From an uncultured Eubacterium sp. (GTDB taxonomy: Bacteria > Bacillota > Clostridia > Peptostreptococcales > Anaerovoracaceae), in assembly GCA_947367725.1 (NCBI GenBank), contig CANBFZ010000036.1:1-10174 (forward strand): DNA of 10,174 nucleotides, in the 5' to 3' direction. Under the pieces are notes generated by a model. That model searched no databases. It was not told the DNA's origin and worked only from the letters and a program-made list of their open reading frames with translations. The position numbers were made by a program, and so were the translations under genes. Of the stretch, positions 1 through 10,174 are shown piece after piece (within the stretch, counting starts at the first letter, position 1; every line of letters starts with the position of its first letter).

Positions 1-66
1 GTAAAGAATTCCTTGGAGACAGAAATCAGCAGTGTAAAGAATTCCTTGGAGGCAGAAATCAGGAAT
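1..66 (+). repeat. Two tandem 33-bp units encoding 11-residue coiled-coil repeats
   Basis: Bases 1-33 and 34-66 are identical at 30 of 33 positions and stay in frame with the coding sequence. A third unit (67-99) is recognisable only at protein level. The array may extend upstream of the window. The high DNA identity, against the diverged third unit, points to recent duplication or slippage. Confidence 0.8.
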
Positions 67-246
67 ATAAAATTGACTTTGGAAAATGAGATCGTCCCTC
101 GGTTGGAAACGACAGAAAACTGCTATACCACTACCTATGAACGCTATGCTAGCGGCATCAATACGTTAGACGGTCTGAAAGCTGATGTGGAAATTCTGAA
201 AAAAGTAGCAGCGGAGCATTCGCGAAAACTACAGAGCATATCCTAA
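1..246 (+). CDS. C-terminal part of a small coiled-coil protein (hypothetical)
   Basis: An open frame runs from base 1 to a TAA at 244-246, so the 5' end lies outside the window. A TTG at 13 could act as a start, but no ribosome binding site is visible and the repeat pattern already begins at base 1, so I treat the gene as 5'-partial. The visible 81 residues open with two near-identical 11-residue units (VKNSLETEISS, VKNSLEAEIRN). A diverged third unit (IKLTLENEIVP) follows, which is a hendecad pattern expected to form an alpha-helical coiled coil. The rest (to KLQSIS) is also charged and helical, with no membrane segment, Cys/His cluster or catalytic motif. Short proteins with an 'IKLTLENE' core are common in Firmicutes and have no assigned function. 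An intrinsic terminator follows 10 bp after the stop. Function unknown. Confidence 0.6.
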   Translation, partial: VKNSLETEISSVKNSLEAEIRNIKLTLENEIVPRLETTENCYTTTYERYASGINTLDGLKADVEILKKVAAEHSRKLQSIS

Positions 247-255
247 ACAGTAAGC

Positions 256-297
256 CTATTTGTATGAAGAGAGAAATTCATGCAAATAGTCTTTTTT
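256..297 (+). terminator. Intrinsic terminator of the coiled-coil gene
   Basis: A 13-bp stem (256-268 with 277-289, one G-U pair) has an 8-base loop and is followed by T-C-TTTTTT (290-297). It lies 10 bp after the stop codon at 246, in the right direction to end that transcript. Confidence 0.88.
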
Positions 298-322
298 GAT
301 TGAAAAGCGAAATTCTATCCTT

Positions 323-347
323 TGTTTCAGTTCACTGAACTGAAACA
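323..347. repeat. 25-bp palindrome, 12-bp arms around one base
   Basis: Bases 323-334 (TGTTTCAGTTCA) are the exact reverse complement of 336-347, with C335 at the centre. No T-run follows on either strand, so it is not a normal intrinsic terminator. Its outer half-sites, GTTTCA and TGAAAC, are the same as those in the activator-type palindromes at 2458-2473 and 8017-8032, but the spacing is 11 instead of 4 bases. It lies between the two convergent terminators at 256-297 and 400-426, where no gene starts. It may be a protein-binding site or simply a cruciform-capable repeat. Confidence 0.6.
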
Positions 348-399
348 CTTCACGCTCGCGCCTTTTCAGGTTCGATTCCTTCCTGATTCTATCGCACAC

Positions 400-426
400 A
401 AAAACGACTGGCAAAGCCAGTCGTTT
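400..426 (-). terminator. Intrinsic terminator of the tRNA-Arg gene
   Basis: Bases 402-412 and 416-426 form a perfect 11-bp stem (AAACGACTGGC with its complement) around a 3-base loop. Read on the minus strand, the stem is followed by a run of T (404 down to 400). It begins at the last base of the tRNA CCA end and so ends the tRNA transcript. It may also stop readthrough from the activator gene upstream. Confidence 0.88.
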
Positions 427-501
427 GGTGCGCCAGACAGGAATCGAACCTGCGGCCTTCACATTCGGAGTGTGCTACTCTATCCCCTGAGCTACTGGCG
501 C
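426..501 (-). tRNA. tRNA-Arg, anticodon CCG
   Basis: A 76-base cloverleaf is readable on the minus strand. The acceptor stem GCGCCAG (501-495) pairs with CTGGCGC (436-430). The D-arm is GCTC-AGGGGATA-GAGT. The anticodon loop is CTCCGAA with anticodon CCG (468-466), which reads the Arg codon CGG. The variable loop is AGGCC. The T-arm is GCAGG-TTCGATT-CCTGT. Discriminator A (429) and an encoded CCA (428-426) follow. The top pair of the anticodon stem (position 27 with 43) is a G-A mismatch and the other four pairs are canonical. The gene has its own promoter (513-542) and terminator (400-426), so it is probably a monocistronic unit. It lies 65 bp downstream of the activator gene on the same strand. 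Confidence 0.96.
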
Positions 502-512
502 ATGACTCTAAT

Positions 513-542
513 AGTATAACACAGATTTTAGTAAAATGTAAA
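513..542 (-). promoter_or_regulatory. Sigma-70-type promoter of the tRNA-Arg gene
   Basis: On the minus strand, TTTACA (542-537) is followed by an 18-base spacer and TATACT (518-513). Each hexamer matches 5 of 6 consensus bases. The predicted start site, near 506, is just upstream of the mature tRNA 5' end at 501. Confidence 0.7.
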
Positions 543-566
543 GCAAAATTATTGTGGAAGCAAGAC

Positions 567-2360
567 TCAGTTAGTGCTGGCGTCGTTTTCCAGTTTTTTC
601 AATTTTCGATAGAGGGAGGTTCTGCTGATGCCTAGTTTTTTTGCCAATTCTTCTCGAGTCATTTTGCCGCTTTTTAAATCTTGCAGATGTTTATGAAGCA
701 CCAAGTTTTCGTATTTTTCTACGTTGGATTTTAGGGTTTCTTTTTCGGTCAGACCCGTTTCTGAATTTGCCAGAGAATGAAACAGTGGCGGAAAGTCGGC
801 TGGCACGATGCAAGGTTCCTGCGCTACGTTAGCAATATATTCCACGACATTTTCAATTTCTCGCACATTGCCTGGCCAGCGATGCAGGGTGAGAAGATTT
901 GCCGCTTCCGCAGAGAAGTCACGCAGTTCTTTTCCCAGCATCTGCGCATATTTCTTTAAAAAGTATTGTGCTAGCGGAAGAATGTCATCCGTTCGTTCCC
1001 GCAGCGGTGGTATGGTAATCGGAATGACATTGAGACGGTAATATAAATCCTCACGAAATTCCTTTGTTTTACACATTTCAGCCAAGTTTTTATTGGTGGC
1101 AGCAATGATGCGTACGTCTATATCAATGAGTTTGTTGCTGCCGATTCGCTCTATCTGTCTGTTTTGAATCACATGGAGCAGCTTGACCTGCATGGCAAGG
1201 GGCAGTTCGCCAATTTCGTCGATGAAGATCGTGCCGCCGTTTGCTGCCTCAAATTTTCCGATATGTCCGCCCTTGGATGCGCCGGTGAAGGCGCCGTCGA
1301 CATAGCCGAAGAGTTCGCTTTCAATGAGATTTTCTGGAATTGCGCCGCAGTTGATGGTAATAAACGGCGCACTGAACCGAGGACCTTCTGCGTAGATGGC
1401 TCTTGCGAACATTTCCTTACCCACGCCGCTTTCTCCGGTAATCAAAACAGTGGAGGTGCTGGCGGCAATCTTGCGGGCAAATTCTTTTACTTTGGAAAGT
1501 TCTATGCTGTCACCGATGATGGAATCGAAGTGCATCGTATTGGAGCCGAGCACTTTGTAGGCAGTCTTTTTAACTTCAGCGATGTCATCAAAGAAGATGA
1601 TAACCCGCTGCAGGGCGTTTTCGTTGTAGACCGGTTTGCAGGATGCCATAATCTTGATATTTTCTTCTTTAAAGTGCAGCTCTCTGTTTTGAAATCCTGT
1701 TTTTGTATTTAAAAAAATAGCGGTGGCAGCAGGCCAGAAGGCATCCAGGTGTAGTCCCGAAAGTCCCCAGCTCAGGTTTGCGCTGGTGAGGATGTGAGAC
1801 TCTGCTTTTTTGTTGGCATTGGTAATATAGCCGTTGCTGTCAATGACGATGATACCCTGGGGAGATCCGTTGACAATTTCGGTCAGTAGGTTGGACTGTA
1901 CGTTCAGATCACGTAGATGATCGATATTGCCAAGATAGGAGGAAAGGAGGGTCGCCATGTTTTTCAGATAGTTGCAGATGGAAAACTGATTGTCGATGAG
2001 ATGTCTGTATTGGACGTCGGTAAAAGCGACCAGAGAGATAATGCCAATGTGTTTTTCATGGTAGGAAATGGTGCAGCAGATTTCACCTTTCTCTCCACTA
2101 ATCCATTCTGCCGGTCCGTAGAGTGGATCGTTGATATCATCTACCACATAGGTGCCGCCCACGCGAAGCAGATATTTATATAAAAATTCTTCTACATAGC
2201 GGCTCTCAGCCTCGTAAGTGCCGATGCGTTCCTGATACTGTCCTGTACCTGCGATAATCTTCAGACTCTCGTCCAGAATCAGGGTTTCGATATTTAAGAC
2301 GGTGGATATGGCGTTGGCGACCTGCTGTACGGTCGGCTGAATATTTACTAATCGGCTCAT
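567..2360 (-). CDS. Sigma-54-dependent transcriptional activator (sensor/PAS - AAA+ - Fis-type HTH)
   Basis: This is a 597-residue enhancer-binding protein that remodels RNA polymerase-sigma-54 using ATP. Residues 1-150 look like a GAF-type ligand-sensing region, with no receiver domain and so probably no phosphorelay. A PAS-like domain covers about 155-262 (NGSPQGIIVIDSNGYI). The AAA+ domain covers about 280-520, with Walker A GESGVGKE (309-316), the sigma-54-contacting GAFTGA (356-361), Walker B TIFIDE (377-382), arginine-finger segment REDLYYRL (436-443) and WPGNVRE (495-501). A Fis-type helix-turn-helix sits near 568-590. The ATG at 2360 is chosen because AAGGAG (2376-2371) precedes it. 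The upstream in-frame codons would run through both promoters in the intergenic region. It is divergent from the transporter operon, which starts with a -24/-12 promoter, so it most likely activates that operon and the molybdenum hydroxylase gene. No hairpin is seen after the stop. Confidence 0.96.
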   Translation of the reverse strand: MSRLVNIQPTVQQVANAISTVLNIETLILDESLKIIAGTGQYQERIGTYEAESRYVEEFLYKYLLRVGGTYVVDDINDPLYGPAEWISGEKGEICCTISYHEKHIGIISLVAFTDVQYRHLIDNQFSICNYLKNMATLLSSYLGNIDHLRDLNVQSNLLTEIVNGSPQGIIVIDSNGYITNANKKAESHILTSANLSWGLSGLHLDAFWPAATAIFLNTKTGFQNRELHFKEENIKIMASCKPVYNENALQRVIIFFDDIAEVKKTAYKVLGSNTMHFDSIIGDSIELSKVKEFARKIAASTSTVLITGESGVGKEMFARAIYAEGPRFSAPFITINCGAIPENLIESELFGYVDGAFTGASKGGHIGKFEAANGGTIFIDEIGELPLAMQVKLLHVIQNRQIERIGSNKLIDIDVRIIAATNKNLAEMCKTKEFREDLYYRLNVIPITIPPLRERTDDILPLAQYFLKKYAQMLGKELRDFSAEAANLLTLHRWPGNVREIENVVEYIANVAQEPCIVPADFPPLFHSLANSETGLTEKETLKSNVEKYENLVLHKHLQDLKSGKMTREELAKKLGISRTSLYRKLKKLENDASTN

Positions 2361-2391
2361 ATGGCTTGTTCTCCTTGTACTATATGGTAGA

Positions 2392-2420
2392 ATTATAAGA
2401 CCGACACGGTTGGCTGTCAA
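2392..2420 (-). promoter_or_regulatory. Consensus sigma-70 promoter of the activator gene
   Basis: On the minus strand, TTGACA (2420-2415), a 17-base spacer and TATAAT (2397-2392) match the housekeeping consensus perfectly. The predicted start is near 2385, leaving a leader of roughly 25 bases that includes the AAGGAG at 2376-2371. Such a strong promoter suggests constitutive synthesis of the activator. This is expected if its activity, rather than its amount, responds to the signal. Confidence 0.87.
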
Positions 2421-2457
2421 GGAGAATGTTACTTTTTTAGGACTAAAAAAATATAAT

Positions 2458-2473
2458 GTTTCAAATATGAAAC
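2458..2473. promoter_or_regulatory. 16-bp palindrome, probable upstream activator site 1
   Basis: GTTTCA-AATA-TGAAAC is a perfect inverted repeat with a 4-base centre. Its centre is about 105 bp upstream of the GG of the -24 element and about 130 bp upstream of the predicted start at 2595, the usual enhancer position for sigma-54 activators. It differs from the palindrome at 8017-8032 at only one base. It lies 38 bp upstream of the activator gene's own -35 box, so an effect on that gene is also possible. Confidence 0.75.
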
Positions 2474-2567
2474 GTAAAATGACGGAAAAATCAGGCATAA
2501 TTCTGTTTGTTTTCATGAAATGCCCCGCAGACCGCTGTTTTTCAAGAGGTACTTCGAAAATACGGCA

Positions 2568-2583
2568 TTGGCACATTCTTTGC
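2568..2583 (+). promoter_or_regulatory. Sigma-54 (-24/-12) promoter of the transporter operon
   Basis: TTGGCAC-ATTCT-TTGC has the invariant GG (2570-2571) and GC (2582-2583) at the required separation (11 bases from the last G of GG to the G of GC). It matches the sigma-54 consensus at every conserved base. The predicted start is about 2595, giving a leader of about 54 bases before the transporter ATG. It faces the operon and lies next to a gene for a sigma-54 activator. Confidence 0.92.
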
Positions 2584-2648
2584 GTAAAATATGCGAAAGG
2601 ACAGCAAGCAGCTGTCTAAAGTGCCATAATTCATGAAGGAGGATACAT

Positions 2649-4049
2649 ATGGACAAGAAATTATCTTTAAAAGCCAAAATTGCCTATAGTATGGGCGGAT
2701 TTGGCGAAGCGATGCCACTGAACTTATTTAATGTTTACTTCGTATATTTTATGACCGACGTGGCTGGCGTTCCTGCTGCCTTTGCAGGTACCATTGCCTT
2801 AATCGGCGTATTGTGGGACGCAATTACAGATCCGATTGTGGGTAAGCTGTCGGATACCTGCACATCTCCAATGGGAAGAAGAAGGGCATACATGTGTCGA
2901 GCTATCATTCCGCTGGCACTATTTGTGATTATGCTCTTTACGCCAGTAAATTTGACGGGCGTTGCACAGATGGCATACTATATTGTGGCTGCACTGGGCT
3001 TCTGGCTCACCCTGACGATGTGGGTCATTCCGTTCTTTGCGTTTGGTGCTGAGATCACTTCCGACTATAACGAAAGAAATACGCTGCGTACGGTAGTTAT
3101 GATTCTGGAAAATGCGATTTTGATTTTATGTACATCGGGTCCGATGTGGGTACTCAGCTGGACCCTCAATCATGGTGGGCAGGAAGCCGATGCATGGAAA
3201 TATACCGCATGGATTACAGGCGCAATTCTTCTGATTACCTGTGTAATCTGCGTGTACTTTACCAAGGGATGGGATCAGCCATATCAGAAGGCGGAAAACG
3301 TCAAAGCAGAGAACCTGTTTGTCACGTTCAAAGAACTGTTTAAGATCCGCACCTTTAGATTTCTGACGATTTCTATGATGCTAGCGTTGTTTGGACTGCT
3401 CTTAATTTCTACCAATTTGGTTTATATTATGAACAATTTGGCAAGACTGACGCCAGAAGAACAGAGCTTATTCTGGATTGTATTTAGCGTGGCGATTATG
3501 GTGATGCTGCCATTTGCCAATAAATTGTGCAATACCATCGGTAAGAGAGAAGTTTTGATCGGTGTAGTAGTGATTCAGGTCATTGCAGGCATCATTTGTT
3601 TCTTCATGAGCCTGGAAAACAGAATCGCATTCTATATTTACATCGTTGCGTTGGTACTGTGCAATGGTTGTCTTGTAGCGCACTATGTTACCTTAGCCTA
3701 TGACAGCTGTGAAGTGGATGAGTTTGTCAATGGAAAACGTCGTGAGGGCAGTATCGTCGCATTGATGTCTTTCATTCAGAAAGCTGGCGGCGCGCTGGCA
3801 ATGTGGATTGCGGGCATCTCACTGTCAATGATCGGTTACGACGGGATGGCAGTAGAACAGACGCCGGAAGTATTGTCAGGACTCAATACCGTCATTACAG
3901 TGATTCCGACGATCTTCTTTATCTTGGCAGCGATCGCACTGTATAAATATCCTGTAACCAAAAAGAATTTTGCGGCACTGCAAGAAGCGCTGGAAAAGAA
4001 AAAGGCTGGAGAGCCATATTCGACAGATCGCTTCCAGGAATTGCTGTAA
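2649..4049 (+). CDS. GPH-family (MFS_2) cation symporter
   Basis: This 466-residue inner-membrane carrier has about 12 hydrophobic segments and is the usual length for the glycoside-pentoside-hexuronide:cation symporter family. Diagnostic motifs are DPIVGKLSD followed by GRRR (61-79) and the central-to-C-terminal signature ending in GKRREGSIVALMSFIQKAGG (about 350-381), with Asp and Glu residues just before it. AAGGAGG (2636-2642) lies 6 bases before the ATG. It is the first gene of a sigma-54-controlled operon and is followed after 16 bp by the amidohydrolase, so it probably imports that enzyme's substrate or a precursor. Known family members carry mostly sugars and uronides, but no carbohydrate enzyme is present here. 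The cargo is therefore probably not a simple sugar, and the substrate cannot be read from the sequence. Confidence 0.92.
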   Translation: MDKKLSLKAKIAYSMGGFGEAMPLNLFNVYFVYFMTDVAGVPAAFAGTIALIGVLWDAITDPIVGKLSDTCTSPMGRRRAYMCRAIIPLALFVIMLFTPVNLTGVAQMAYYIVAALGFWLTLTMWVIPFFAFGAEITSDYNERNTLRTVVMILENAILILCTSGPMWVLSWTLNHGGQEADAWKYTAWITGAILLITCVICVYFTKGWDQPYQKAENVKAENLFVTFKELFKIRTFRFLTISMMLALFGLLLISTNLVYIMNNLARLTPEEQSLFWIVFSVAIMVMLPFANKLCNTIGKREVLIGVVVIQVIAGIICFFMSLENRIAFYIYIVALVLCNGCLVAHYVTLAYDSCEVDEFVNGKRREGSIVALMSFIQKAGGALAMWIAGISLSMIGYDGMAVEQTPEVLSGLNTVITVIPTIFFILAAIALYKYPVTKKNFAALQEALEKKKAGEPYSTDRFQELL

Positions 4050-4065
4050 TGGAAGAAGGGGAAAG

Positions 4066-5256
4066 ATGATGACAGAGAATAAGATTTTGCTTGCAAGTGC
4101 AAATGTGTTAGACGTGTATCAAGGTGAGAGTCGCCTACAGCACGATGTTTATATTGAAGGAAATACCATAAAGGAAGTTTGCCCCCATGGGCAGCTTTCC
4201 TTTGGAGAAGATGTAGAGGTAGTGGATTGCACGGGAAAGACAATTATGCCGGGACTGATGGATTGTCATGTACATTTGTGCATGGATCCTGCTTGTGCAG
4301 ATCCAGCTGTCATAGCGGCGAAAAGTGATGCGGATCTTACCATTGACGCCATAAACCATATGGATGCACTGCTGAAAAATGGAATCACGTATGTGCGTGG
4401 GATGGGCGATCCGAGAAATATTGATATTGTACTTTCCCAGGCGAAAAAAGAGGGAAAGATCGATGGTCCAGATATTCTGCCCTGTGGAAAACTAATCTGT
4501 ATGACCGGTGGTCACGGCTGGCAGCTCGGTGATGAAGTAGATAGTCCCGATGAGATGCGAAAGGCTGTACGAAAGCTTTTGAAGGCTGGCGCCGGACATA
4601 TCAAAATGATGGCAACTGGCGGTGTGATGACCCGCGGTGTCAAGACCACATCCACGCAGCTGACCTATGAAGAACTGAAAGCGGGCATTGAAGAGGCGGA
4701 ACATGCAGGCATCAAGACTGCCACCCATGCCCAGGGCAACGCAGGCATCAGAAATGCGGTGCGCGCAGGGATTCACTCGGTAGAACACGGCTTTTATCTG
4801 GACGAGGAGATTGTCAGCTGGATGATTGAGAAGGGCACTTTTTATGTGCCGACGCTGGTGGCAGTGTATGAGATATTAAATCAAAAAGACAGCCTGCCAT
4901 CCTATCTCGTAGAAAAAGCGGAAGTGGCAAAGGACGCCCACAGAGCAAGTTTTCAGCTTGCTTTAAAGTCCGGTGTAAAGATTGCACTGGGAACAGACGC
5001 AGGTACGCCGTTCAACCAGTTTGGAAGCGCTAGAGATGAGTTTCTCTATATGATTGAAGCAGGTATGAGCCCGGTGCAGGCGGTCAGAAGTGCTACCTGC
5101 ATAGCGGCGCAGCTTTTAGATGTAGAAGACCGGTTCGGCAGTATTGCGCCGGGAAAAGCTGCAGATCTGTTGATTTTGCAGAATTGTATTTATGACGAGC
5201 CGGGGACGATCAAGGCGCCATTTGTCGTTTACAAAGGGGGAAAACGCTATGTATAA
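4066..5256 (+). CDS. Amidohydrolase-superfamily metal hydrolase (prolidase/imidazolonepropionase-like)
   Basis: This is a 396-residue cytoplasmic TIM-barrel hydrolase. All the metal-site residues of a binuclear amidohydrolase are visible: HxH in MDCHVHL (H68, H70), a probable carboxylated lysine in HIKMMATGG (K180), H221 in THAQG, H241 in VEHGF and the catalytic Asp D311 in LGTDAGTP. The overall pattern, including the GGHGW stretch near 148-152, fits the group that contains Xaa-Pro and Xaa-Arg/Lys dipeptidases and ochratoxin-type amidases. That suggests cleavage of an amide or C-terminal peptide bond, but the substrate side chain is unknown. Two ATGs occur in tandem (4066 and 4069) after a G-rich AAGGGGA (4056-4062), and I use the first. 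No signal peptide is seen. The 3' end overlaps the tldD-like gene by 8 bp, so the two are translationally coupled. Confidence 0.92.
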   Translation: MMTENKILLASANVLDVYQGESRLQHDVYIEGNTIKEVCPHGQLSFGEDVEVVDCTGKTIMPGLMDCHVHLCMDPACADPAVIAAKSDADLTIDAINHMDALLKNGITYVRGMGDPRNIDIVLSQAKKEGKIDGPDILPCGKLICMTGGHGWQLGDEVDSPDEMRKAVRKLLKAGAGHIKMMATGGVMTRGVKTTSTQLTYEELKAGIEEAEHAGIKTATHAQGNAGIRNAVRAGIHSVEHGFYLDEEIVSWMIEKGTFYVPTLVAVYEILNQKDSLPSYLVEKAEVAKDAHRASFQLALKSGVKIALGTDAGTPFNQFGSARDEFLYMIEAGMSPVQAVRSATCIAAQLLDVEDRFGSIAPGKAADLLILQNCIYDEPGTIKAPFVVYKGGKRYV

Positions 5257-6589
5257 CTTCCCAGAAAATCTTTATACCGATATACGAATTGACAACTACA
5301 ATGAAACCCAACTAACCTATGATAGGGAGGTTTTAGCAGAGATTAAGGAAAAAGATGTAGAAGGCGTCTTTCTTCGCATTTATGACGGACATCGCTGGTA
5401 CTACAGTTCTTTTACGGGAAAATCGCAGATTCAGGAGGAAATCGATGCGCTGGCAGCAAAGGCGTCACCGAATCCTTCGGTATACGACTGTCCAGTGGTA
5501 AAGAAACTGGAAGCAAACCAATATCGGCGGCTAGCCTATGAAGACGGATTCGGCAAATTGCCTTTGGATGACAAAATTGCGGTAGTCTCCAAATATCCTG
5601 TTCAGTACATGTCGCAGTGCAGCCTGATGACCGATTTGACTACACAGCTGCTTTTGATTCACAATGTGCGGGAGTTTTACTCCAGCAAGGGTGCAGACCT
5701 TTATTATGATGAAGAGGTTCTGTCGCTGGTGCTGTCGGGTACTTTTGCCTGCGGTGAGAATGTGCTGGTGGAAAATTACGAGAAATTTGGCCATAAACTT
5801 TCTGATCTTGATGCGCGTGTGGACAGAGAGATCACAGAGCATATCCAAAAAGCAGAAGAATATGTACGGGAGTGCGTCAGCGTTGAGCCGGGCACGTATC
5901 CGGTTGTCTTTTCTCCGGAAAATACAGGTCTTCTCTGTCATGAAAGCGTAGGACACAAGAGTGAAGGTGATTTCTTTGTGGATGCGCCAGGCATGGAACG
6001 CATCTGGACCATGGGTGAGGAAATCTGTGATGGAGGGATTTCTATTGTAGATGACGGAGAAATCGAATCCTCTATTTATCTGCCTTTTGATGATGAAGGC
6101 ACCAAATCCAGACCGACGGCTATCGTAAAAGAGGGCTGTGTGGGCGATCGCATGACAAATGCCGCTGCAGCGGCAGAACTGGATCTGCCGATGACAGGCA
6201 ATGCGAGAGCCATCGACTACACTTGGGAGCCTATGGTGCGAATGACGACCGTATACCTGAATCCTGGCACTTTACCAATGGAGGATTTGTTCAAAGGCAT
6301 CGAAAAAGGAATCTTTGCGGATACCTATATTGCAGGCGGCGGTCTGGATGTGTTCAGCATCGCGCCGGGCAGATGTTATTTGATAGAAAATGGAAAAATA
6401 ACAAAACCGGTAGCAGTATCGCTGATTTTTGCCAGATGCAAAGACGCGCTGGCGTCTATCGAGGGCAGAACGAAGGAAGTCATTCTAAAACCGGCATATT
6501 ACATTCGCTGCGGGAAACCGCCGCAGCTTGGACTTGCTACATCAGACGGCGGACCATATGTGCGATTTAAGTCGCTTAGTGTCGTATAG
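5249..6589 (+). CDS. tldD: TldD-type metalloprotease, catalytic subunit
   Basis: This 446-residue protein is close to the usual TldD length. The zinc motif HExxxH is present as HESVGH (231-236), followed by KSEGD as in TldD (EGD). A conserved Cys near the C-terminus (C421 in IRCGKPPQLG) is the expected third metal ligand, so the subunit should be active. TldD-TldE heterodimers are cytoplasmic proteases with a buried active site that degrade unfolded peptides and, in known cases, mature peptides such as microcin B17. The ATG at 5249 lies inside the end of the amidohydrolase gene, and the AAAGGGGG at 5233-5240 upstream of it decides the start. The partner gene follows 12 bp later. The sequence is diverged from the housekeeping type and its operon is inducible, which suggests a dedicated peptide or amide substrate. 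The symbol denotes the family, not proven orthology with E. coli TldD. Confidence 0.92.
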   Translation: MYNFPENLYTDIRIDNYNETQLTYDREVLAEIKEKDVEGVFLRIYDGHRWYYSSFTGKSQIQEEIDALAAKASPNPSVYDCPVVKKLEANQYRRLAYEDGFGKLPLDDKIAVVSKYPVQYMSQCSLMTDLTTQLLLIHNVREFYSSKGADLYYDEEVLSLVLSGTFACGENVLVENYEKFGHKLSDLDARVDREITEHIQKAEEYVRECVSVEPGTYPVVFSPENTGLLCHESVGHKSEGDFFVDAPGMERIWTMGEEICDGGISIVDDGEIESSIYLPFDDEGTKSRPTAIVKEGCVGDRMTNAAAAAELDLPMTGNARAIDYTWEPMVRMTTVYLNPGTLPMEDLFKGIEKGIFADTYIAGGGLDVFSIAPGRCYLIENGKITKPVAVSLIFARCKDALASIEGRTKEVILKPAYYIRCGKPPQLGLATSDGGPYVRFKSLSVV

Positions 6590-6601
6590 GAGGGAGCAGA
6601 T

Positions 6602-7897
6602 ATGATTCGAGAAAAGTATGAAATAAACAGCACCGAGTATGCGGCCGTGTTCCTCAATTCGAAACTGGATGCGACGCGCCGGCGGGTTTCGAGAAAAAAG
6701 GGGTTCCGCGTCTACGACAAGGGATGCATCGGACTGAAATATTCAGAAAGTGACTGCGACGAAGAAAAGATGTTTCGCAGGGCAGAAGAAATGCTTTGTT
6801 ATCAAGTGCCATATGAACCGACGCCGGAAACTGAACGTGTGTGCCATATGGATATGACAGCGGGCGAAAAAGCACCGGACTATCAAGTCTTTGAGGATCA
6901 GTGTGAAGATCTCATCATTCGTCTGAAAAAGAGATTCCCCGGTATTATTTTCAGTAATTCTATTCGGATCGTGGAAGAGGAGCATAAGCTGGTAAACAGC
7001 CAAGGGCTGGACTTGTCATTTAAAGATCGCTATTATTTGGGAGAAATTAGCCTGAAAATACGCGATGGCATCAATATCACCGATGGTGCAATTCCGTACA
7101 AGAGCAGAACCTTTGATCCGGAGGGAATTTTTGCCCATGTAGAAAAAGTGCTCGCAAATTATGAAAACGTAATTACGGTGGAGGAAGGAAAGTCCTATCC
7201 GATGATCATATCGACCATGGATGCTTTCAACCTTTATTATGGGTTCATCAACACCTGTTTTGAGCGGGAACTGAATGGACAGCACTACGGTGCAGGCGGA
7301 TCGCTGCTCACCGGGCAGCAGGGAAAGCAGGTATTTAACGAGAATTTTAATCTAGTGCAATACAGCGATCCTGCGAAGTATATTGGCAGACCGTTTTTTG
7401 ATGCAGAGGGTACCATCATTGACAGCGGCGTGGTGGATTTTGTGAAAGACGGTACATTCTTAAGACCGTACACAGATAAAAGCGTCAGCCTGAAATATGG
7501 GTTTGAGAATACGGGCAGCGCAGAGGCGAAACCAGAAAATGTCCCTTGCCTTGGCGGCATTGGCGGAACGGGAATTCCGCAGATTCGTCCGGTGGGTTTA
7601 ACGATCACTGGGCAGCATCAGAATCTAGATGCATTGGTGGGCAGAGAACGTGCGATTTATGTGTTCTTCTCTCTGGCAGGCTCTTATAATAACATGGGCG
7701 GTTACGCCCTGCCGGTACAGTTCGGTTTGGTATACGAAAATGGCGAATTTATAGGAAGAACCCAGGAATTGATGTGCAATACCACCATATGGGATATGTA
7801 CGGAAAGCGTTATCGGGGTCTTGCTGAGAATACTTTGATGCCGACCTCTGCCCATGACTATATGGTCATCGACATGGTGGCAAATCAGAATGGATAA
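6602..7897 (+). CDS. pmbA: PmbA/TldE-like partner subunit of the TldD protease
   Basis: This is a 431-residue member of the TldD/PmbA family. The N-terminal region has the family pattern of a variable strand followed by GFRVYDKGCIGLKYSES (34-50). The middle has GAGGSLLTGQQGKQVF, like the corresponding region of PmbA. The C-terminal domain has ENGEFIGRTQELMCNTTIWDM (about 379-399). There is no HExxxH where TldD has it, so this should be the non-catalytic half of a TldD-TldE heterodimer that shapes the substrate channel. AGGAGGG (6588-6594) lies 7 bases before the ATG and overlaps the stop codon of the tldD-like gene, giving tight co-expression and suggesting a 1:1 complex. A strong terminator follows 11 bp downstream, so this is the last gene of the operon. 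The symbol denotes the family only. Confidence 0.9.
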   Translation: MIREKYEINSTEYAAVFLNSKLDATRRRVSRKKGFRVYDKGCIGLKYSESDCDEEKMFRRAEEMLCYQVPYEPTPETERVCHMDMTAGEKAPDYQVFEDQCEDLIIRLKKRFPGIIFSNSIRIVEEEHKLVNSQGLDLSFKDRYYLGEISLKIRDGINITDGAIPYKSRTFDPEGIFAHVEKVLANYENVITVEEGKSYPMIISTMDAFNLYYGFINTCFERELNGQHYGAGGSLLTGQQGKQVFNENFNLVQYSDPAKYIGRPFFDAEGTIIDSGVVDFVKDGTFLRPYTDKSVSLKYGFENTGSAEAKPENVPCLGGIGGTGIPQIRPVGLTITGQHQNLDALVGRERAIYVFFSLAGSYNNMGGYALPVQFGLVYENGEFIGRTQELMCNTTIWDMYGKRYRGLAENTLMPTSAHDYMVIDMVANQNG

Positions 7898-7908
7898 AAT
7901 GCGCATAG

Positions 7909-7940
7909 AGACGGCACAGCCTTTGGCTTTGCCGTCTTTT
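7909..7940 (+). terminator. Intrinsic terminator of the transporter-amidohydrolase-tldD-pmbA operon
   Basis: An 8-bp stem AGACGGCA (7909-7916) with TGCCGTCT (7930-7937) continues after one mismatch into AGCC/GGCT around a TTT loop. TTTT (7937-7940) follows. It separates the four-gene operon from the molybdenum hydroxylase gene, which has its own promoter. Confidence 0.9.
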
Positions 7941-7986
7941 GCGTTTACGCGTCTATACACCATGTTAAAATACTGCGCTCATAGAT

Positions 7987-8013
7987 GTTTCAAGTTTGTG
8001 TCTTTTGTGAAAC
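7987..8013. promoter_or_regulatory. Accessory activator half-sites / imperfect second palindrome
   Basis: A GTTTCA half-site (7987-7992) and a TGAAAC half-site (8008-8013) flank 15 bases. The 16-mer ending at 8013 (GTGTCTTTTGTGAAAC) is an imperfect version of the 8017-8032 palindrome, with centres 19 bp apart (about two helical turns). It may be a weaker or cooperative binding site for the same activator. Confidence 0.5.
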
Positions 8014-8016
8014 TTC

Positions 8017-8032
8017 GTTTCGAATATGAAAC
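8017..8032. promoter_or_regulatory. 16-bp palindrome, probable upstream activator site 2
   Basis: GTTTCG-AATA-TGAAAC matches the site at 2458-2473 at 15 of 16 bases, including the AATA centre. Its centre is about 100 bp upstream of the -24 GG and about 124 bp upstream of the predicted start at 8148, almost the same geometry as in the first regulatory region. Shared control by the activator encoded at 567-2360 is inferred from this match. Confidence 0.75.
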
Positions 8033-8121
8033 AAACGAAAGAGGAAGCCATGGATCCTTTGATCGCTATAACCATTGCAATTTACAGCAAAACGAGCATT
8101 ACAGCGGTACAGGTCTATGGC

Positions 8122-8136
8122 TGGCACACATTTTGC
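8122..8136 (+). promoter_or_regulatory. Sigma-54 (-24/-12) promoter of the molybdenum hydroxylase gene
   Basis: TGGCAC-ACATT-TTGC carries GG (8123-8124) and GC (8135-8136) at the required spacing and fits the -24/-12 consensus. The predicted start is about 8148, leaving a leader of about 28 bases with a GAAGGAG ribosome binding site before the ATG at 8176. Confidence 0.92.
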
Positions 8137-8175
8137 TTTATATAGAAGTACAACGGATAGGAAGGAGTATCAGCG

Positions 8176-10174
8176 ATGGAGAAGTGTAAAATACGCTACG
8201 TGCCAAGAGAACAGAAGCAGTATATGGGCACCTACAGACCGAAGATAGACGCAAAAGAAAAGACCCTTGGAAAAACGCAGTATCTGGATGATATTACCCT
8301 GAAAGGGAAATTGCCCGGCATGCTGTATGCAAAGATTTTGGAGTGTCCTTATCCCCATGCCAAAATCCTAAAAATGAATACAGAAAAGGCGGAGTCGCTG
8401 CCAGGCGTATGGGCGGTACTTCGCTGTGATGACCCGGAAATTCGCGCCCTGGGAAGAACAACCCACTGCTGGACGGACATTGCCATTACGCCGAAAGATG
8501 TGGATACCGTAATGCGGTATTGGGATCGAGAGTTTTTACCGGAGACCGGACTTTGGGTAGGCGATCATATGGGTGTAGCGGTAGCGGCTGAAACACCGGA
8601 ACTTGCAGAGGAAGCCTTGAAACTGGTCGATATCAAGTGGGAAATCCTGCCTGCTATTTATGAGATGGAGGCGTCGAAAAGGGAAGATGCGGTGATCATT
8701 CATCCCGAACTGAATCCTGCGACAAACCAGCTTAGACACAGTGAGGATGGCATCATTGACGATCTTTATTATAGTCGAGGCGATGTGGATCAAACCATGG
8801 CAGAGGCGGATTTTGTACTGGAAGTGGATAAAACCTATGGCGGTGTGACAACCCATGGCTGCCTGGAATACCGGGGTTGTGTGATCGACTGGCGGGAGGA
8901 CAAGATGGATGTTTGGACGAACCACTATATGTCCGACCAGACCAGAATGTTTCTTCACGATTATACCCATGTGCCGCTTGCCAAAATTCGTGTCAGAAAC
9001 GGCAACAGCGGCGCCCATATGGGCAAATGGAACACCGGTGAAGATATTTTCTTTCTGATCACCGCTTACCTCTCAAAACGGGCGGGAAAACCGGTGCGCT
9101 ATAAGATGACCAATCATGAGGAATTTCATGAAACGAGAAATCTCAATCGCTACAGAGTCAAAGCCAGCTGCACCAAAGAGGGGAAAGTCCTGGGCATGGA
9201 TATGATCTGTGAAGGCAATACCGGTGCCTATATCGGCGCCTGCGATCACAATGTAGAATTTCTGGTGCGGGAAGTGTTGGATCGAGATTTTGCGCCGATA
9301 GAACATATCCGCATGCATTCGTATACCTGGTTTACCAACAGGATGCCCGGCGGCGTGGTGCGCGGTATCGGCAATGTACAGCTTTGCTGGACCTTTATGG
9401 CACTCCTTGACGAGTTGGCAGAGAAGACCGGCATTGATGTGCTGGACATACTGAAGATGAACTGCGGCAATGATGTCAACTGGCCTGGAGAGCAGAATCA
9501 CAGCATCTGCAGAATTCTGGATTTGGGCGCAGAAGCCATCGGCTGGAAAAACCGGCACAAGGCAGCCGAAGGACCGTGCATAGATGGATATAAGAAAAGA
9601 GGGATCGGCGTTGCCATCTGGAATCAGTGGCATGCGGAACTCAACGAACTGACCCGCGGATTTTATGAGGTGAGCATCCGGCTCAACCCGGATATGACAG
9701 TGATTATTCAGGCGCCGACTTCAGAAACCGGTGCCGGCGGCAACAGCGCGGCAGTGTTTGCCTGTGCGGAAAACCTTGCCTATTTGGATGTGAAACCGGA
9801 AGACATTCTCTGGACGCCGCTTGGAGATACAGAGCTGGGGCTTCGGGACAATGCGCCGACTGACAGCGTTATTTCTTTTCTTTATGCGGAAGCCATGGTT
9901 GAAGCCGCAGAAAAGCTGAAAGCAGAAATTCTGCGCAGAGTAGGGGAATACATGGGAAAGCAGCCGTCTGAACTGGATATTACACACGGTATGGTTTTTG
10001 AAATCGCGGATCCGCAAAACTGTATTGGTGTGGAATGGTTCATGCTGCACACAGATTGCGTGCCGATTCATATTCACCACGCCAGACATAATGTGCGTGA
10101 GCAGGCGGGACTGCCGTTCGGCGCTTGGTTTGTCGAGGTAGAAGTGGATGTAGAGCTTGGTACAGTGGAAGTGG
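8176..10174 (+). CDS. Xanthine dehydrogenase/aldehyde oxidase-family molybdenum-cofactor-binding subunit (3' end outside window)
   Basis: The frame is open for 666 codons and runs off the window. GAAGGAG (8161-8167) precedes the ATG by 8 bases. The N-terminal a/b hammerhead domain (about 29-160) has LGKTQYLDDI, CPYPHAKI (57-64), LPGVWAVL and VGDHMGVAVAAET (128-140). The cofactor domain follows, with THGCLEYRG (226-234), KPVRYKMTNHEEF, GNTGAY (347-352), GGVVRGIGNVQ (392-402) and SETGAGGNSA (516-525), the counterparts of the family's RGFG and GQG-type loops. The usual GGGFGGK loop is replaced by GNSGAHMGKW (276-285), which is atypical. The catalytic Glu loop expected near the C-terminus is not reached. 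Such subunits hydroxylate purines, N-heterocycles or aldehydes with water. They need [2Fe-2S] and usually FAD subunits, which are not seen here and may follow downstream. The gene has its own sigma-54 promoter. Confidence 0.92.
   Translation, partial: MEKCKIRYVPREQKQYMGTYRPKIDAKEKTLGKTQYLDDITLKGKLPGMLYAKILECPYPHAKILKMNTEKAESLPGVWAVLRCDDPEIRALGRTTHCWTDIAITPKDVDTVMRYWDREFLPETGLWVGDHMGVAVAAETPELAEEALKLVDIKWEILPAIYEMEASKREDAVIIHPELNPATNQLRHSEDGIIDDLYYSRGDVDQTMAEADFVLEVDKTYGGVTTHGCLEYRGCVIDWREDKMDVWTNHYMSDQTRMFLHDYTHVPLAKIRVRNGNSGAHMGKWNTGEDIFFLITAYLSKRAGKPVRYKMTNHEEFHETRNLNRYRVKASCTKEGKVLGMDMICEGNTGAYIGACDHNVEFLVREVLDRDFAPIEHIRMHSYTWFTNRMPGGVVRGIGNVQLCWTFMALLDELAEKTGIDVLDILKMNCGNDVNWPGEQNHSICRILDLGAEAIGWKNRHKAAEGPCIDGYKKRGIGVAIWNQWHAELNELTRGFYEVSIRLNPDMTVIIQAPTSETGAGGNSAAVFACAENLAYLDVKPEDILWTPLGDTELGLRDNAPTDSVISFLYAEAMVEAAEKLKAEILRRVGEYMGKQPSELDITHGMVFEIADPQNCIGVEWFMLHTDCVPIHIHHARHNVREQAGLPFGAWFVEVEVDVELGTVEV

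Follow-up and report, generated by a model that had tools for sequence, protein, structure and literature searches.

A candidate sigma-54-dependent regulon linking a molybdenum hydroxylase to a transporter, amidohydrolase and TldD/TldE operon in an uncultured Eubacterium sp. and two relatives

Thirty-nine regulons of sigma-54 enhancer-binding proteins (EBPs) have been built in Clostridiales (Nie, Dong and Yang 2019, PMC6615313). As far as the main text and Table 1 of that work go, EBP genes lie beside their targets and upstream activating sequences (UASs) carry group-specific motifs. UASs are mostly placed 100-250 bp upstream, are multiple in 32 of the 39 EBP groups and accompany promoters of the consensus TTGGCATN5TTGCT. 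Here we describe a locus of an uncultured Eubacterium sp. (Anaerovoracaceae) that fits this pattern as a new regulon. It was found in the window, that is, the whole analysed stretch of 10,174 nucleotides (GenBank assembly GCA_947367725.1, contig CANBFZ010000036.1, positions 1 to 10,174, forward strand). An EBP gene stands there beside two sigma-54 promoters that share an upstream dyad; the initial annotation had drawn from them a link between a transporter/amidohydrolase/TldD/TldE operon and a molybdenum hydroxylase, and this link is supported (features in Table 1).

The present gene set is not among the target operons in Table 1 of PMC6615313, and "xanthine dehydrogenase" and "molybdenum" have no occurrence in its main text. 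The DioR regulon of Clostridiales (ygeW-ygfK-ssnA-ygeY, a cluster with xdhC, and others; Table 1 there) is similar in that a sigma-54 EBP is set with genes around molybdenum hydroxylases (xdhC), but its other target genes differ, and the two are set apart by targets alone. The dyad could likewise equal one of the group motifs of that work, from which the new regulon is distinguished by target genes and not by motif logos. The best NCBIfam match of the EBP is PrdR, the proline reductase regulator (394.3 bits over residues 154-589); the cut-off of the PrdR equivalog NF041552, 795, is not reached. The PrdR motif, for which PMC6615313 gives TGT/ACA inverted repeats spaced by 10-12 bp, is unlike the GTTTCA-N4-TGAAAC dyads of the present cluster, and no prd-type gene occurs among the cluster genes scanned. 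The result lists of literature searches on the gene cluster and the dyad motif contained nothing specific.

We consider it probable that the EBP activates a molybdenum-hydroxylase island in a pathway-specific manner, through dyads at three promoters; its binding, DNA looping, ligand control and the limits of the operons are what we infer from the comparison below. The cluster occurs in three genomes: G000, which carries the window (2.12 Mb); G334, Emergencia sp. 1XD21-10 (locus L003), assigned to the window's genus; and G028, a metagenome-assembled genome (MAG) from another genus (locus L004). L003 and G334 agree in the contig and position of their pattern matches, and the matches of L004's genome agree with those of G028. 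Promoter A precedes the transporter operon, B the gene of molybdenum-cofactor-binding (Mo) subunit 1 and C the gene of a 2Fe-2S subunit. Dyads are scored by matching bases out of the 12 arm bases of GTTTCA-N4-TGAAAC.

Both dyads and both -24/-12 elements of the window lie where the initial annotation had placed them. The elements have the form TGGCAC-N5-TTGC. Start-to-start distance from dyad to element is 111 bp at A and 105 bp at B, with 95 and 89 bp, respectively, between the dyad end and the T of TGG. The 16-mer GTTTCRAATATGAAAC is found at two places in G000, both of them these window dyads (reversed control, 0). As a motif, the annotated 16-bp consensus was rejected as too narrow, since its four central bases differ among promoters and genomes; the conserved motif is the arms, GTTTCA-N4-TGAAAC, and not the centre. 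GTTTCN6GAAAC without mismatch occurs at six places in G000: the window and contig C278 have two each, C150 and C273 a single one. Four of the six are inside three sigma-54 promoters.

The third of these promoters lies outside the window. Promoter C, on contig C278 of G000, has two dyads 30 bp apart that start 90 and 120 bp before TGGCATATTTTTTGC. Since it shares the design of A and B in the same genome, the regulon comprises at least three operons and not the two originally suggested. Contig C278 holds only the first two genes of operon C, coding for the 2Fe-2S subunit and a second Mo subunit. In Emergencia, these are followed on the same strand by genes for an FAD subunit, a solute-binding protein, a permease and an ABC ATPase (ModABC-like), and further by those for a MoeA-like molybdopterin-binding protein, a MobA-like NTP transferase, XdhC, MoaA, a MOSC protein and MoaC. 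These assignments cover all of the set but two further open reading frames (ORFs) of ~205 aa. We infer that all Emergencia genes after promoter C are on one transcript. The G028 genes after that of the FAD subunit code for ModA and ModB, both over their NCBIfam cut-offs, and for an ABC ATPase under the ModC cut-off. A fourth regulon promoter is possible in this one genome: a branched-chain amino acid transporter (brnQ-like) gene adjoins the EBP gene, with two dyads 30 bp apart (10/12 and 11/12), the nearer of which starts 153 bp from TGGTATATTTTTTGC (L153 10593-10790, 10808-12127).

Distribution of the sites follows that of the cluster. A scan of genome contigs identified close EBP orthologues in Emergencia (90% identity) and G028 (89%), and a search of 148 family genomes found a close EBP in G000 and G028. 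The other EBP matches listed are at most 46% identical when they cover most of the query, partial ones up to 54%. The pattern of dyad plus -24/-12 element was searched for in 349 family genomes and detected in nine: three matches each in G000 and G028, two in G334 and one in each of six others (reversed control, 0). Promoter B of G334 was missed because its best dyad, GTTGCAATGATGAAAC, scores 11/12; promoters A, B and C with dyads are present in all three cluster genomes. The amidohydrolase, searched for in the same 349 genomes at 1e-90, was found in six. Its identity is at least 85% in G000, G028 and G334 (thus in 2 of the 13 genomes of the window's genus) and 46-47% in three genomes of another genus. 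The surroundings of these three, in ORF lists from which overlapping frames had been dropped, showed no further cluster gene; the amidohydrolase itself is the single match at L208 and L209, and L210 (3.6 kb) has no match. From these counts, sites and cluster occur together in 3/3 genomes, while more than one site occurs in 0/346 others. Relatives that keep the activator and genes and lose the palindromes had been named beforehand as an observation against the regulon; both other cluster genomes keep the palindromes.

The six genomes with a single dyad and promoter (G123, G089, G266, G302, G106, G035) were not counted as regulon members. By eye, L187, L193 and L185 resemble terminator hairpins that enclose the dyad; L188/L189 do so in part, and L186 may be read either way. 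At the loci of ~40%-identical EBPs (L081-L108), dyad and promoter occur together in none; a longer G123 contig has one doubtful site. Three loci from other phyla (L019, L026, L033), with a one-mismatch dyad 58-78 bp before a weak -24/-12 element, were set aside. A half-site pattern, TGAAAC-N72..102-TGGYA-N6-TTGC, was too loose (matches in 44/148 genomes); the other half was lacking in 5/8 of its matches in G028, 1/4 in G000 and 4/6 in Emergencia.

Comparison of the three genomes reveals that the dyads and -24/-12 boxes are kept while the intervening DNA is scrambled. Besides the invariant columns listed in Table 1, only 24/95 spacer columns are invariant at A, and at B 28/89 of the spacer and 5/16 of the second site. 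At C, the numbers are 11/16 for the dyad, 12/16 for the upstream dyad, 15/74 for the spacer and 15/15 for the -24/-12 element. Best dyad scores in G000, G334 and G028 are 12, 12 and 12 at A, 11, 11 and 12 at B, and 11, 11 and 12 at C. When the 260-bp upstream regions of these nine promoters were shuffled, the real best score was matched in 0/300 for seven of them and reached in 1/300 for promoter C of G000 and of G334.

Many of the sites are arranged in tandem. Dyads exactly 30 bp apart are present at promoter C in 3/3 genomes and at promoter A in G028, where the counterpart of the weak dyad 2428..2443 reads GTTTCGTTTTTTGAAC (9/12). The spacing at B is 30 bp in G000 (second site 9/12), 31 bp in G028 (8/12) and 19 bp in G334. 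Since 30 bp is about three helical turns, two dimers would sit on nearly one face.

One might suppose that the dyad controls the EBP gene and operon A alone, the sites at B and C being functionless relics of promoter duplication. The two Mo subunits of Emergencia are 81% identical, so that B and C may indeed stem from one duplicated promoter. However, both dyads and the -24/-12 element of C are kept against a scrambled spacer in three genomes, and the -24/-12 element of B is conserved too, which makes relics very improbable. Activation at all three promoters by the neighbouring EBP is the reading we retain.

Several observations weigh against this reading. GTTTCN6GAAAC with one mismatch is not enriched genome-wide in G000 (117 places, 113 in the control). 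This, together with the six genomes in which an unrelated dyad and promoter meet once, in several cases in a terminator-like hairpin, is what chance would predict if such dyads were common in AT-rich intergenic DNA and stood before two sigma-54 promoters by accident. Chance can hardly be reconciled, though, with two or three matches per genome exactly where the cluster occurs, with dyads conserved across scrambled spacers or with the outcome of shuffling, and we regard it as the least credible explanation. Tandem dyads with at most two mismatches, searched for in 12 chosen genomes, exceed the control in G334 (16 vs 5) and G028 (9 vs 3) and equal it in G000 (5 vs 5); they also exceed it in G336 (8 vs 2) and G340 (5 vs 0), both without a close amidohydrolase, and this search is thus weak on its own. 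Two of the zero-mismatch tandem dyads listed belong to promoter C; another, on C27 of G028, is unrelated.

Of the three footprints, that of B shows the weakest conservation, in part an effect of the alignment, in which dyad B was set against a 9/12 site of G334 instead of the best dyad there. The weak dyad 2428..2443 lies just upstream of the sigma-70 promoter of the EBP gene, so its conservation may have another cause, and it may belong to that gene's own promoter region instead. Conservation is not deep, as it concerns three genomes only, with cluster copies of 80-93% protein identity. G000 is only 73.6% complete, in 360 contigs, and G028 is a MAG whose EBP gene with promoter A (contig C37) and remaining cluster (C9) lie on two contig ends, so that their adjacency is an assumption there.

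Finally, matches to other EBPs number at least seven in G000 (of 25 first-look candidates, 8 were scored). The dyads might therefore be operators of another DNA-binding protein, a repressor or other EBP, with the neighbouring EBP using other sites; in G028, a small gene resembling XRE-type helix-turn-helix (HTH) regulators by eye is also near (L153 10170-10520). We think this unlikely. The EBP co-occurs with the cluster, and the dyads are paired and at EBP-typical distance. Reading by eye through the ORFs listed for the Emergencia locus, part of which were also searched with Pfam, we noticed no further regulator gene. In addition, the HTH regions of the four other G000 EBPs that were compared are 21-31% identical to that of the cluster EBP, in contrast to 77-79% for its two orthologues.

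Judged by its sequence, the cluster protein is a sigma-54 EBP, with an AAA+ domain (Sigma54_activat, PF00158, 233.5 bits) bearing the GAFTGA loop at residue 356 and a C-terminal Fis-type HTH (HTH_8, PF02954, 23.0 bits vs cut-off 22, only the last half of the model being matched). PAS_8 scores 19.7 bits, below its cut-off of 21.8. An AlphaFold model (mean pLDDT 76.5, pTM 0.47), of low confidence in its first 60 residues, agrees with a division into N-terminal domain, PAS-like part, AAA+ and HTH. The gene is preceded by a consensus sigma-70 promoter, and its orthologues in both other genomes have identical, perfect hexamers with identical spacing upstream; the EBP is thus probably constitutive and ligand-controlled. 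A gene for sigma-54 itself, rpoN (PF04552 over cut-off), is present in all three genomes.

The mechanism we propose is as follows. The EBP would be produced from its own sigma-70 promoter, sense a pathway compound by its N-terminal/PAS region and bind GTTTCA-N4-TGAAAC dyads, often two of them 30 bp apart, with the nearest good dyad beginning 89-123 bp ahead of the -24 box. By looping of the DNA and hydrolysis of ATP, it would then open sigma-54 RNA polymerase at the three promoters. Predicted targets are the transporter, amidohydrolase, TldD and TldE at A, Mo subunit 1 at B, and the 2Fe-2S subunit, Mo subunit 2 and FAD subunit at C, probably joined in Emergencia by the molybdate-uptake and cofactor genes downstream. 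No terminator was reported by a scan between operon A and promoter B, where a hairpin is visible by eye near 7910-7940.

Table 1. Features of the window and the Mo subunit pair (UAS, upstream activating sequence; columns are alignment columns invariant in the three cluster genomes)
Feature	Position	Strand	Details
tRNA-Arg (CCG) gene	426-501	minus	adjoins 3' end of EBP gene
EBP gene, 597 aa	567..2360	-	N-terminal sensor region, PAS-like region, AAA+ sigma-54 activation domain, Fis-type HTH
Consensus sigma-70 promoter of EBP gene, TTGACA-17-TATAAT	2392..2420	-	pattern match
Weak second dyad at A, GTTACTTTTTTAGGAC	2428..2443	.	7/12 by direct reading; 30 bp upstream of dyad A; 12/16 columns
Dyad A (putative UAS), GTTTCAAATATGAAAC	2458..2473	.	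12/12 arm bases; 14/16 columns
-24/-12 element, promoter A, TGGCACATTCTTTGC	2569..2583	+	12/15 columns
GPH/MelB-type MFS transporter, operon A	2649..4049	+	MFS_2 265 bits; TIGR00792 219 bits, below cut-off 231
Amidohydrolase, Xaa-Pro dipeptidase/arginine carboxypeptidase/ochratoxinase group	4066..5256	+	Amidohydro_1 158 bits
TldD-like metallopeptidase subunit	5249..6589	+	PmbA_TldD_3rd and PmbA_TldD_1st
TldE/PmbA-like partner	6602..7897	+	PmbA_TldD_3rd 60 bits; no NCBIfam match
Weak dyad, GTTTCAAGTTTGTGTC	7987..8002	.	9/12; 30 bp upstream of dyad B
Weak dyad, GTGTCTTTTGTGAAAC	7998..8013	.	10/12; 19 bp upstream of dyad B
Dyad B (putative UAS), GTTTCGAATATGAAAC	8017..8032	.	11/12 arm bases; 10/16 columns
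Variant of putative phased element, TTGCAATTT	8075..8083	+	38 bp before T of TGG, promoter B; block conserved in three genomes
-24/-12 element, promoter B, TGGCACACATTTTGC	8122..8136	+	13/15 columns
Molybdenum hydroxylase, Mo-cofactor-binding subunit 1	8176..10174, runs off window	+	MoCoBD_1, MoCoBD_2, Ald_Xan_dh_C
Mo subunit pair	L183 10048-12435 and 13133-15532; window 8176-10174 and L152 1-2347		paralogues

As to the enzymes, the Mo subunit has the alpha subunit of 4-hydroxybenzoyl-CoA reductase as its top-scoring solved structure. The XdhA equivalog NF043082 is not reached, the full-length Emergencia orthologue scoring 334 bits against a cut-off of 780. By sequence the enzyme is a hydroxylase of the xanthine oxidase family, not assigned to XdhA. 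Mo subunits 1 and 2 of Emergencia are paralogues, each with an upstream sigma-54 promoter; one 2Fe-2S and one FAD subunit are seen beside them. The Emergencia FAD subunit (L183 15529-17892) contains a GltD-like module (Fer4_20 and Pyr_redox_2) between an FAD_binding_5 start and CO_deh_flav_C; its G028 counterpart (L158 3162-5528) is 80% identical over its length. Among structures in the PDB, sequence matches of the amidohydrolase are 9kov (best), 2qs8, 3mtw and 4c5y. From these enzymes one might guess that the substrate contains an oxidisable ring and an amide or peptide linkage.

We also considered the origin of the cluster. Where compared (window 567-10174, L152, L158, L183), the G000 cluster proteins share 85-93% identity with their counterparts in both relatives, the EBP 89-90%; between G334 and G028, the FAD subunits share 80%. 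RpoN identity is 94.7% between G000 and G334 and 59.5% between G000 and G028. Cluster proteins of 80-93% identity set against 59.5% for RpoN suggest that the cluster, with activator and sites, was passed between genera. Horizontal transfer of activator, sites and enzymes as one unit is likely on these identities, unless the G028 contigs are misbinned. Since G028 is a MAG, misbinning of the cluster contigs is conceivable; it would change the donor genus and leave the sites as they are. The tRNA-Arg gene beside the EBP gene may be an island insertion point.

Promoter B has an extra conserved block around TTGMAATTTACAG, with exact TTGAAATTT at 37 bp in promoter B of both other genomes. In the 349 family genomes, TTGAAATTT followed after 18-48 bp by TGGCAYN5TTGC has 42 matches in 31 genomes and 19/92 genera (reversed control, 0); with a 60-90 bp gap there are 10 matches in 10 genomes. 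The 9-mer is extended by TTTCA in 28 of the 42, and the majority consensus of the 31 matches having loci is GTTGAAATTTCAA. The 42 spacers to the -24 box cluster at 22-28, 34-39 and 44-48 bp, with none between. Their best period is 10.5 bp (R 0.60), unmatched in 3000 simulated uniform sets with periods of 7-16 bp allowed. The 42 include a G340 promoter twice and some orthologous promoters; after removal by hand, 37 remain, with R 0.59. EBPs were seen at nine of the 20 sites whose surroundings were fetched, and their HTH ends are very different, so that one EBP's UAS is an unlikely explanation. The palindrome (12/14) is not a general repeat either, since it occurs at only two places in 319 kb of a G123 contig and two in 80 kb of a G028 contig (reversed control, 2 and 0), of which one and none, respectively, precede a sigma-54 element.

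We tentatively suggest, at somewhat less than even chances, that a further cis-element besides the EBP dyads, TTGAAATTTCAA, is present in sigma-54 promoters of the family, on one helix face and 22-48 bp ahead of the -24 box; it would be common to unrelated EBP regulons and might be a global co-factor site or an RNA-polymerase contact. The loci concerned are L226-L255, in addition to the window variant. Some points weaken the case for phasing. The 28 palindromic matches alone have a best period of 10.0 bp (R 0.68), the 14 non-palindromic ones are weaker (12.1 bp, p 0.03), and palindromes farther away (60-90 bp) are without clear shared phase. A weak point is that the element was both found and tested on exact 9-mer matches. 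Flanks of TTGAAATTTCAA are often complementary too, so some copies may be hairpins. Literature searches, as far as the sources covered go, found no published description of this palindrome.

The dyads provide an exact, testable candidate binding motif for an unnamed EBP. They would bring together one probably inducible pathway of a gut-type anaerobe, consisting of a transporter, an amidohydrolase, TldD/TldE and a hydroxylase that has two Mo subunits, to which the molybdate and cofactor genes are added in Emergencia; the shared regulon narrows the search for its substrate. If the second element is real, the molybdenum-enzyme regulon would integrate a specific signal, through the EBP dyads, with a general one, through the variant at promoter B. 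If confirmed, the phased palindrome would be a general feature of the sigma-54 promoters of this family.

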